In this document: positions 1,806 to 4,644 of the stretch, in pieces | How the letters are laid out: each line of letters opens with the position of its first letter | Numbering within the stretch: the first letter of the stretch is position 1 | NCBI GenBank assembly: GCA_023228925.1 | Contig: JALOAF010000006.1 | Location: forward strand, 1-42,470 | From: Candidatus Absconditabacterales bacterium | GTDB lineage: Bacteria; Patescibacteriota; Gracilibacteria; Absconditabacterales; Absconditicoccaceae | Reading direction: 5' to 3' | DNA: 42,470 nucleotides | Notes under the pieces: model-generated | What the model saw: only the letters and a program-made list of their open reading frames with translations | What the model was told of the DNA's origin: nothing | The model's database searches: none | Made by a program: the position numbers and the translations under genes

Positions 1806-2084
1806 ATGCCTAGACCAAAAAAAGAAAGAATTGTTTGTTTGGATCCAAATATTAAATGCTTTTGACCACAATGATCAAAACAAAAACATGAAGTTGTTGA
1901 AATTTTTTGTGATGAATTAGAGGCCATCAAGCTGATTAATATAGAATGACTCAGTATGTTGGAATGATGAAAAAAAATGGGAGTTTCTGCATCAACATTC
2001 AATAGAATTTTGAAATCTGCATATAAAAAAATTACAGACGCAATTATCAACGAAAAAAATTTAGCGATAAAAAAATGTAAATAA
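1806..2084 (+). CDS. DUF134 family predicted DNA-binding protein
   Basis: The 92-aa product begins MPRPKKERIVC and keeps the family pattern: the MPRPKK start, a central DELEAIKL helix, then GLSMLEGGKKMGVSASTFNRIL, which is a sigma-like helix-turn-helix. DUF134 proteins are small putative regulators, often encoded near metal or Fe-S genes; no such partner is visible here. Length matches the family (about 90-110 aa). Glycines at several loop positions are TGA. The adjacent upstream membrane protein carries a cysteine pair, so a metal link is conceivable but only inferred. Confidence 0.85.
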
Positions 2085-2176: not shown

Positions 2177-4072
2177 TTAAATTATTTTTATAAACTCTTC
2201 CAAACTTCAAGTTCCTTGCTCCTTAGTTTTGTAAGATCTCCAAGAAACAGAATTTTCAGACTCCTCTTTTTCTCACACTATAAACAAATATGGAATCTTT
2301 TCTATCTCTCAATTTCTAATTTTCTTGGAAAAAGAATCATTTGAATAATCTATACTAGCTCTATATCATAAAGAATTAAGCTCTTCTTTTACCTTTTGAG
2401 CATAATTTTCAAACTTATCTGCTACAGCTATAATTCTAATCTGCTCTGGGGCTAACCACATAGGAAAAGCTCCAGCATAATTTTCAATCAAAACCCCCAT
2501 AAATCTTTCCAAAGACCCAAGTAATGCTCTATGTATCATAAACGGTCTTTCTTGTTCTCATTGCGGATTTGTAAAAGTCATATCAAATCTCTCTGGTAAA
2601 TTGAAGTCAAATTGAACAGTGGAAAGTTGTCGATACCTACCAATTACATCTTTAACTTTAAAGTCTATTTTTGGCCCATAAAAAGCTGCTTCTCAAAGCT
2701 CCTCTTCGTGTTCTATTTGTTTTTCTTTCAAAATTTCTCTAATCGTATCTTCAGCTTGTTTTCGCATCGCCTTATCTCACACATATTTATCTGAATTAGG
2801 GTCTGAAAACGAAGCAAAAACCTTAATGTCTTGAAAATCAAAGTGATGTAACACTTTGAACGCAAAATCAACCACCTTACCAAACTCTTCCTTCAATCAA
2901 TCTTTGGAAACTATAATATGAGCATCATCCTGAGTGAATCCTCTCACACGAGTCAATCAACCCAATTCTCATTGTTTTTCATATCTATAAACTGTTCCAA
3001 ACTCATAATATCTAAGCGGAAGTTCTCTATAAGAATGAATATCATCTTTATAAACTTTCACATGAGCAGGACAGTTCATTGGTTTGAGAAGATATATTTC
3101 CGATTCTTTAGGTTTTCTATTGTCTTGTCGTTCTCCCAAAGAGTGTCATAGTTCGATAGGAGGGAACATTCACTCATTATAAAATCATCGATGTCCTGAC
3201 TGTTCTCGGAGTTTTTTCTTTCCAATATGTGGAGTAATTACAGGCACATATCCTGCTTTCAATTGCTCATCTTCAAACCACCTCTTAATTTGATTTACAA
3301 TAAAAGCTCATTTTGGTTTTCGAAGCACTAGTCACGAACCAACATCTTGATCAATATTATAAAGTCATAATTTTTTTCACAACACTCTATGATCTCTTTT
3401 TTTGGCTTCTTCCATCATATCAGAATATTCTCTCAATTTATCTTTTGAATCAAAAGCTCGTGCATATATTCTAGTCATCATTACATTATTTTCGTCTCAT
3501 CTCCAATAAGCTCCAGCTAGCTTTTCTAATTTGAAAGATTTTGGATCAATTTCTTTTGTGGATTCGACATGAGGTCATTCACACATATCCAAAAAAGTTA
3601 CAAAACTATTTTCAAATTTATCTGGATATTTTTTTTGTAAATAATCAGTAATTTCTTCATAATATTTTATATAATTTTCATTTACTCATCTCAAAAGATT
3701 ATCTTTTGCTGCAGAAACTATTGTATTTACATAAAATGTGATATTTTCTCACAATTGAACAAACTCTGCTCTCATCTCTTCTTTGTACTTTTGTTTCATA
3801 ACTTGTGTGACCAACTCTTTTGATTCTTGGTCTGTCATCTCCAAAAGAACAAAATTTTGTCCTTCTTTCACAATTTTTTCCATCTGATTTTGAATCTTTG
3901 TCAGATCTTCCTCTTTTATTTGATTTTTAGCATCAAACAAAAAATCATAGTATAGACCATTATCAATAGCTGGTCATATACCAACTTCCACATCTCGTTG
4001 TTGCTCTCTCTGCACAGCTTGCGCCAAAATATGTGCAAGTGAATGTCTTTTTTTTAGCAAACTATCTCCCAT
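2177..4072 (-). CDS. thrS: Threonyl-tRNA synthetase, lacking TGS domain
   Basis: A 631-aa class II synthetase that charges tRNA-Thr. The N2 editing domain starts almost at residue 1, with the HxxxH pair H10/H14 ([10 protein letters not shown]) and the CEGPHV motif. The catalytic core follows, with the zinc ligands in [15 protein letters not shown] and MIHRALLG, class II motif 2 around YRYEKQGELGGLTRVRGF, motif 3 near [16 protein letters not shown], and the C-terminal anticodon domain ([10 protein letters not shown]...). The usual N-terminal ubiquitin-like TGS domain of about 60 residues is missing; no frame upstream supplies it because the leader region lies there. Expression is probably controlled by attenuation through the leader peptide and alternate hairpins at 4087-4202. 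Confidence 0.96.
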
Positions 4073-4086
4073 TTTTATTAGTTTAA

Positions 4087-4154
4087 TGAATAAATAAAAA
4101 GCTCCTATCAGCCTTAGGAGTTTTTTGACAATTGAAACAAACAAAAAACTCCTA
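4087..4154 (-). promoter_or_regulatory. thrS transcription attenuator (antiterminator/terminator switch)
   Basis: Two mutually exclusive hairpins lie between the leader peptide and thrS. The antiterminator is a perfect 13-bp pairing of 4142-4154 with 4115-4127 (TAGGAGTTTTTTG with CAAAAAACTCCTA on the transcript). The terminator pairs 4115-4120 with 4102-4107 (CTCCTA/TAGGAG, 7-nt loop) and is followed by TTTTTATTT. Segment 4115-4120 is used by both. The leader stop codon (4152-4154) sits at the first bases of the antiterminator arm, so a ribosome finishing the leader would cover that arm and favour termination, while a ribosome stalled at the threonine codons would leave it free. This is the classical layout of ribosome-mediated attenuation. 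Confidence 0.85.
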
Positions 4155-4202
4155 CCATGATATGGTGTTTGTGGTGTTTGTAGTTATTGCTTCAAGATGC
4201 AT
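4152..4202 (-). CDS. thrS leader peptide (16 aa, five threonines)
   Basis: The frame encodes MHLEAITTNTTNTISW and a TAG stop. Five of 16 codons are threonine (ACT, ACA, ACC, ACA, ACC) clustered within seven codons just before the stop. It begins 130 bases upstream of thrS on the same strand and ends at the antiterminator arm. Its likely role is as a sensor of charged tRNA-Thr rather than a functional peptide, by analogy with the E. coli thr operon leader. A candidate promoter lies just upstream. Too short for routine gene calling. Confidence 0.82.
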   Translation of the reverse strand: MHLEAITTNTTNTISW

Positions 4203-4235
4203 ATTTTTGATAGTAATTAGTTAAATACTAAACAA

Positions 4236-4263
4236 TTTTTAATCTATTCTTTTAAAAAATCAA
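4236..4263 (-). promoter_or_regulatory. Candidate promoter for the thrS leader
   Basis: On the minus strand TTGATT (4263-4258), a 16-base spacer and TAAAAA (4241-4236) precede the leader ATG by about 33 bases. The 16-base spacing matches other promoters in this window. The hexamers are imperfect, so this is tentative. Confidence 0.4.
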
Positions 4264-4317
4264 GAGAAACTGATTGCTGGTTAATTGTCATCCAAAAATC
4301 ACCTTTTCCAAAACTTG

Positions 4318-4386: not shown

Positions 4387-4644
4387 ATGGAAACAAAATT
4401 TTACATTTTTATCATTACAACAACACTTTGTGTGTTTTTGTTTTTATTAAGTTTAAAATTTAGTAAAAATAGAAACATCGATATTTTGTTGTTTCTTCTG
4501 GCTTCTGCTTTTTTAGTTTTTTCCACATACTATCCCTTGTTTTTATCAGGATGGTGGTATAAACTTTTATTTTTTTTAGGACCTATTCTCTTCTGGTTCT
4601 ATTGTATAAAAGAGGAAAAAATAAAAGAAATATTAGGCCAATAA
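4387..4644 (+). CDS. Small three-helix membrane protein
   Basis: An 85-aa product without internal TGA: METKFYIFIITTT start, then three hydrophobic helices (about residues 5-23, 32-52, 56-75) and a short basic/acidic tail (KEEKIKEILGQ). Family not recognised. It is monocistronic, with its own candidate promoter and a strong terminator five bases after the stop. Confidence 0.7.
   Translation: METKFYIFIITTTLCVFLFLLSLKFSKNRNIDILLFLLASAFLVFSTYYPLFLSGWWYKLLFFLGPILFWFYCIKEEKIKEILGQ

Follow-up and report, generated by a model that had tools for sequence, protein, structure and literature searches.

What might a run of threonine codons be doing just upstream of the gene for threonine-tRNA ligase? 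The question is raised by a stretch of 42,470 nucleotides (nt) from Candidatus Absconditabacterales bacterium (GenBank assembly GCA_023228925.1, contig JALOAF010000006.1, positions 1 to 42,470 of the forward strand; hereafter the window), in which thrS lies on the minus strand behind a 130-base leader. An earlier note, made from the sequence alone, had read this leader as a complete ribosome-mediated attenuator; comparison with related genomes and modelling of the RNA now make it very probable that the leader is a transcription attenuator in which a translating ribosome would sense the level of charged tRNA-Thr.

Anatomy of the thrS leader

Direct reading of the minus strand from 4202 to 4073 gives, in order, a leader open reading frame (ORF), two antiterminator arms, a terminator, and a T tract. 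The ORF (4152..4202) has 16 codons, runs from ATG at 4202-4200 to the stop codon TAG at 4154-4152, and encodes the peptide MHLEAITTNTTNTISW; the Thr codons ACT, ACA, ACC, ACA, and ACC fill five of seven codons (4164..4184), each detail being as the earlier note had given it. The stop codon begins region 2, the antiterminator 5′ arm TAGGAGTTTTTTG (4142..4154; recognized by sequence, fold, and architecture scan), which is perfectly complementary over 13 base pairs (bp) to region 3, the antiterminator 3′ arm CAAAAAACTCCTA (4115..4127; sequence and architecture scan), and the previously claimed position of the stop codon on the first arm of a perfect antiterminator can be read off directly (4154-4142 with 4127-4115). 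The last six bases of region 3, CTCCTA (4120-4115), serve also as the terminator 5′ arm and can alternatively pair with region 4, the terminator 3′ arm TAGGAG (4102..4107; terminator and architecture scans); a C, the T tract TTTTTATTT (4092..4100) of a predicted intrinsic terminator, and then thrS follow, so that sequence and terminator scan together confirm the sharing of CTCCTA/TAGGAG between two hairpins. In region 1 (4170..4196), leader codons can pair with region 2 and the flank on its 3′ side; the predicted duplex, -12.8 kcal/mol, is weak relative to shuffles (z -1.2). Over 601 bases the terminator scan returned this minus-strand site and one plus-strand site inside thrS, where shuffles lead one to expect 0.1; and folding of the 125-nt leader, a check that the earlier note had proposed, gave z -2.1 relative to shuffles, with 4 of 200 shuffles equal or better.

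The proposed switch is modelled on the trp and his leaders, whose attenuation is an established mechanism described by a scheme of regions 1 to 4 (PMC1183508). When charged tRNA-Thr is low, the ribosome would stall on the Thr codons; region 2, left uncovered, would pair with region 3, and RNA polymerase would continue into thrS. When charged tRNA-Thr is ample, the ribosome would reach the stop codon at the start of region 2 and cover that region; pairing of region 3 with region 4 would follow, and RNA synthesis would stop at the T tract (around 4092-4100). What the sequence itself shows is the ORF with its Thr codons, the complementary arms with their overlap, the T tract, and the recurrence of these elements in relatives. 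From this anatomy and the established trp/his mechanism we infer the stalling, the termination, and the link to Thr supply; the transcription start and translation of the leader are likewise predicted.

Recurrence of threonine-rich leaders

The comparison set comprised the window and 110 further regions upstream of thrS, all from the class to which the closest relative found (G001, ThrS 71% identical) belongs. ThrS matches at E<=0.001, some of them weak, occur in 341 of 353 genomes of the class; the main criterion for picking the 111 regions was ThrS similarity, and 20 no-TGA genomes of greater distance were added, which makes the sample non-random. A leader was scored as an ORF of 8-45 amino acids (aa) with at least 5 (or at least 4) Thr in 8 codons, and dinucleotide shuffles served as controls. 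Up to 330 nt upstream of thrS, runs of at least 5 Thr occur in 39/111 regions compared with 0/1110 shuffles, and runs of at least 4 in 44/111 compared with 14/1110; up to 700 nt upstream, the corresponding counts are 42/111 compared with 1/555, and 50/111 compared with 14/555. At 330 nt the leader is found at 35 of the 87 thrS matches that contain in-frame TGA and at 4 of the 24 that do not. The earlier note had set the attenuator in a bacterium using genetic code 25: that setting holds for the window, where the thrS frame, with 22 in-frame TGA codons, stays open only when TGA encodes an amino acid, and is no requirement for the leader, which is present in these four no-TGA relatives and in further cases.

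On the sense strand no other residue behaves like Thr. Residues other than Thr attain at least 5 in 8 codons in at most 4 of the 111 regions (Leu), and the antisense Val runs of at least 5 seen in 24 regions arise because the complement of Thr codons is read in another frame. On the 1.18-Mb contig of relative G044, a single gene of 772 (>=150 aa) has a Thr-run leader, and that gene is thrS. Among 120 regions upstream of PheS, HisS, Tyr/TrpS, and Asp/AsnS matches (30 each, order-wide) we found one Thr run of at least 5, in a 42-aa ORF with a hairpin near a HisS-family match, and one cognate run of at least 5, of Phe and without a hairpin, in a comparison limited by a strict hairpin test, by short upstream flanks at some loci, and by weak PF13393 matches that may not be HisS. 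A general regulon of synthetase genes under leader control was considered and is unsupported, with that one cognate run of 5 in the 120 regions and none with a hairpin. Upstream of gatA, over 1500 nt including coding sequence, a Thr run of 5 occurs in 3 of 30 regions, so that over so wide a region a Thr run by itself is weak evidence. Beyond the class, 28 loci from the phylum and 8 from Firmicutes/Chloroflexi yielded one run of at least 5 (L270) and one more that reached 4; L266, one of 29 new loci, was excluded as already in the set under the handle L108.

The leaders themselves are varied. Over the 39 with at least 5 Thr in 8 codons, Thr is encoded by ACA 100 times, ACT 83, ACC 64, and ACG 23, and none of the 39 uses a single codon type; these mixed codons, together with recurrence before thrS far above chance, remove the worry that the window run is a tandem repeat. 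The peptides fall into groups: MHLG/ETTTT..., MNxITTTTTTT..HIW, MSYSTTTTTTTT., LAQLVTTTT..., and MLALLVTTTT.... Stop codons of the 44 leaders with at least 4 Thr are TAG in 28, TAA in 13, and TGA in 3, the last because code 11 was also allowed; code 25 would read through them.

Predicted alternative hairpins and modelled switching

Our architecture scan required a hairpin followed by a T tract, a partner for its 5′ arm farther upstream (-8 kcal/mol or stronger), and, close to that partner, the leader stop codon; as controls, everything downstream of the leader stop was shuffled in these loci. It was passed by 35 of 44 leader loci and by 26 of 220 shuffles, an approximately sevenfold enrichment. 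Among the loci that failed, stems are visible by eye at L015, L016, and L044, and L079 was probably taken in the wrong frame. The stop TAG forms part of region 2, GGTAGGAG, in many loci and lies just upstream of region 2 in others. Arm sequences change from group to group while pairing is kept: GGTAGGAG with CTCCTACC, AGAGGGATTTTG with CAAATCTCTCT, and CACGGAG with CTCCGTG; over the 35 passing loci, cognate antiterminator arms average -15.5 kcal/mol, compared with -8.5 for swaps between loci. Conserved Thr-rich leaders combined with mutually exclusive stems whose arms differ between lineages support the leader-peptide attenuation that the earlier note had proposed.

Pairing between the leader and region 2 across loci goes beyond that original description. 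Relative to shuffled leaders, region 1:2 pairing has a mean z of -1.48, with 31 of 44 loci below -1; the ORFs of L078 and L080 run over region 2, so that the match there is 2:3, and without these two loci the mean z is -1.44, with 29 of 42 below -1. Such pairing may explain the conservation of non-Thr leader codons. Two further comparisons were set aside: the MAFFT alignment of the LAQLV group is out of register at the stems, and no pair counts were drawn from it; and an unbiased architecture scan of G044 gave 197 candidate pairs, too noisy to use, the thrS and gatC leaders not being prominent among the candidates listed.

Terminator formation was modelled in silico at the 35 passing loci, assuming a 15-nt ribosome footprint. 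The mean terminator probability rises from 0.32 with the ribosome on the first Thr codon to 0.47 two codons on and 0.96 at the stop codon; the window values are 0.00, 0.00, and 0.98, and in 32 of 35 loci the stop codon gives a higher probability than the first Thr codon. Naked RNA gives a mean of 0.82 and prefers the terminator over the antiterminator in 30 of 35, a modelled preference that fits with region 1:2 pairing.

Evidence against attenuation and rival explanations

Several results weigh against the attenuator. Homologous thrS genes without a Thr-rich frame, which the earlier note had named as contrary evidence, account for 69 of the 111 regions by the rule of at least 5 in 8, the other 42 having a leader; the feature is common, not universal, even within the class. 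Shine-Dalgarno (SD)-like 4-mers lie upstream of 5 of 44 leaders, although they are rare before the genes of relative G044 as well. The architecture scan is permissive, as its 26 of 220 passing shuffles indicate, and 9 of 44 leader loci fail it; a locus's own 3′ arm is the best partner at only 12 of 35 loci, because close relatives share arm sequences. In the closest group, antiterminator cells are 97.6% paired, a level reached by 190 of 500 shuffles, and terminator cells 88.3%, reached by 22 of 500; both figures are uninformative because the stems hardly vary, and the upstream alignment suggested in the earlier note recovered conserved Thr-rich leaders while compensating changes in the closest group could not be demonstrated. 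The modelled switch is clear (<0.3 at the first Thr codon, >0.5 at the stop codon) in only 20 of 35 loci, with no gain at the stop codon in 3; and naked window RNA, unlike that of 30 of the 35 loci, prefers the antiterminator (probability 0.85, terminator 0.09).

A side observation concerns initiation in G044, where an SD-like 4-mer precedes 10 of 473 genes (>=200 aa), compared with 5 in shuffled sequence, start calls being crude; translation initiation in that genome may be independent of SD pairing.

Could the leader be something other than an attenuator? The Thr run might have arisen by chance as a short tandem repeat, or be the remnant of a decayed coding region, with the hairpin being the ordinary terminator of another transcript. 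The window run does contain ACAAACACC twice, Thr-rich ORFs do occur elsewhere (as in the wide gatA regions), and some matches to the covariance model described below are not at threonine genes; nevertheless, recurrence in 42 of 111 thrS regions with varied Thr codons, a stop codon at or near region 2, and the concentration of the best model matches on thrS make this explanation highly improbable. T-box RNAs control many Firmicutes synthetase genes (PMC2965389), and a T-box binding uncharged tRNA-Thr might control thrS directly, the Thr codons being incidental. That we regard as extremely improbable: no T-box reached the Rfam threshold in the window or at 20 further loci, including 12 from the class that have a Thr leader, and the Thr-codon content would be left unexplained. 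Rfam holds an enterobacterial Thr leader model; its threonine operon leader gave no gathering-score match in the window or the 20 loci, no Rfam family matched the window leader at gathering score, and no regulatory-RNA family did so before thrS at 12 further leader loci.

In Escherichia coli, threonyl-tRNA synthetase binds a tRNA-like operator near the thrS start codon and so blocks translation. Autoregulation of this kind, mentioned for the E. coli enzyme in PMC2965389, would work without a Thr-codon leader and without a T-tract terminator, yet both are present here; it could coexist with attenuation, and as an account of the leader, judged by those two elements, it seems very unlikely. Alternatively, the ORF could act through nascent-peptide ribosome arrest or translation coupling rather than the level of Thr-tRNA, an idea to which the non-Thr residues common within groups (MHLG/E, LAQLV) lend some color; yet those codons can pair with region 2, a possible RNA-level cause of their conservation, and the feature common across groups is the Thr run itself. 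This last alternative we judge very unlikely, and sensing of charged tRNA-Thr by a translating ribosome is the reading we prefer.

Putative targets of the leader across the class

From 16 close leaders we built a covariance model and ran it, under strict filters and with a maximum of 10 scored candidates per genome, on the 353 genomes of the class; 78 of them had a match at E<=0.01. The top 20 matches (E<1e-9; 15 are training sequences) all precede thrS. The 34 matches at E<=1e-5 divide into 26 before thrS, 2 before a thrA-like gene, and 6 other or unassigned (one at a contig edge); as 15 of the 26 thrS matches are training sequences, the 19 non-training matches include 11 before thrS and the 2 thrA-like cases. 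We also read 15 weaker matches, naming the genes by eye: 8 precede thrS (G118, G069, G089, G066, G210, G214, G236, G330), 1 precedes an aspartate-semialdehyde-dehydrogenase-like ORF (G052), and 6 are unrelated or unassigned (G006, G228, G024, G346, G230, G301). In a few genomes (G066, G089) an ORF intervenes between leader and thrS. The thrA-like targets, in G259 and G260, encode a product resembling aspartate kinase/homoserine dehydrogenase (ThrA), the gene starting inside the kinase domain.

It is possible, if rather doubtful, that Thr attenuation is an old class-wide regulon of these host-dependent bacteria, with one type of leader acting on thrA and asd where Thr is still made and on thrS where it probably is not, that charging has replaced biosynthesis as its output, and that the device works across the recoding of UGA to glycine.

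Individual loci deserve mention in their own right. L311 and L317 (G259 and G260) have a Thr-run leader, MNAAKIIITTTTTTTIM in L311, and hairpins before the ThrA-like gene, and L327 (G052:C39:12665-12770) has the leader MQINLTTKTKTAHLLRG and a terminator before the aspartate-semialdehyde-dehydrogenase-like ORF, named by eye. At L324 (G006:C1:867336-867445) the leader MILYSHSHFVLNTTNNNRLTR and hairpins are followed by a 318-aa ORF and then an AsnS-like gene (also by eye), and at L335 (G238:C28:67334-67443) a Thr-run peptide and terminator stand directly before a short ORF that by eye resembles a transposase, a poor match for a threonine gene as target. L162 (G044:C1, about 789800-790050, minus strand) carries an Asn-run leader, MKIVLTQVNNNNNNLPPRGFF, ahead of gatC-gatA, and a gene of the AspS/AsnS family lies farther downstream; by eye its antiterminator is 11 bp, GATTTTTCTAG/CTAGAAAAATC, and ends at the leader stop codon, and a terminator is present. 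L162 may be a variant of the switch that responds to Asn and acts on a transamidation operon. Asn runs of 5 occur at 1 of 30 gatA loci, namely that of G044 itself, and at none of 19 GatC loci of the order, counted without the perfect-stem test, which misses the known G044 leader.

The thrS locus of the window

The window thrS (2177..4072, minus strand) encodes 631 aa when its TGA codons are read according to code 25, and matches NCBIfam TIGR00418 with 598 bits, the cut-off being 384. In four relatives, 54 of the 88 cells aligned to its TGA positions are Gly, which fits with code 25 and with UGA apparently specifying glycine. A DUF134 gene (1806-2084, plus strand) is its convergent neighbor and a small ORF (4387-4644, plus strand) its divergent neighbor; because of this arrangement thrS is probably its own transcription unit, without co-transcribed genes. 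Comparison with the upstream sequence of relative L013 reveals a common block, TCTCTTGATTTTTTA...GAATAGATTAAAAAT (4235..4267, minus strand), which is a putative promoter region. Elsewhere in the window, at 88-1104, lies a gene with an HSDR_N (Type I restriction R-protein N-terminal) domain.

Significance and comparison with known systems

According to PMC11665869, almost nothing is known of how Patescibacteria regulate their life cycle; for one Gracilibacteria genome, uptake of its amino acids from the surroundings has been inferred (PMC6851277). If true, the thrS attenuator would provide a concrete amino-acid sensor in cells of this kind and a ready readout of their threonine supply; it would imply that transcription and translation are coupled in them, and would show that an altered genetic code has not done away with leader-peptide attenuation. 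We found no attenuator described for Gracilibacteria, Absconditabacteria, or Patescibacteria in the open-access literature accessible to us, which does not establish absence in print.

The enterobacterial trp, his, and thr leaders share with ours a cognate-codon ORF, the 2:3 and 3:4 pairings, an intrinsic terminator, and a stop codon placed where the ribosome covers region 2 (following in part the scheme of PMC1183508). They differ in that the target here is a tRNA synthetase gene, in Gracilibacteria-type genomes, and that no Rfam leader family matches at threshold. Synthetase genes have such leaders elsewhere. The pheST genes of E. coli are under leader-peptide attenuation, likewise with a cognate-codon leader. 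Similar leaders have been predicted before the Streptomyces synthetase genes trpS and leuS (PMC1262725) and, with His codons, before the hisS paralogues hisS*/hisZ of bacilli (PMC2965389). Compared with all of these, the amino acid and the phylum are different here, and dozens of loci of one class are involved.

The earlier note had regarded leader-peptide attenuation of thrS as a new example. For the phylum that stands, no described case having been found there; for the gene it must be qualified, as a candidate thrL, likewise a short ORF with Thr codons before thrS, has been reported in Streptomyces lividans, with two Thr and, according to its authors, no U tract (PMC8079986). The window leader differs: five of seven codons are Thr, both alternative hairpins are complete, and comparison with relatives supports it. 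T-boxes, finally, also sense tRNA charging at the level of transcription; no T-box match was found, and the sensor here would be the translating ribosome. As far as the open-access literature goes, then, comparative evidence points to a classical mechanism with a new target in a new phylum.
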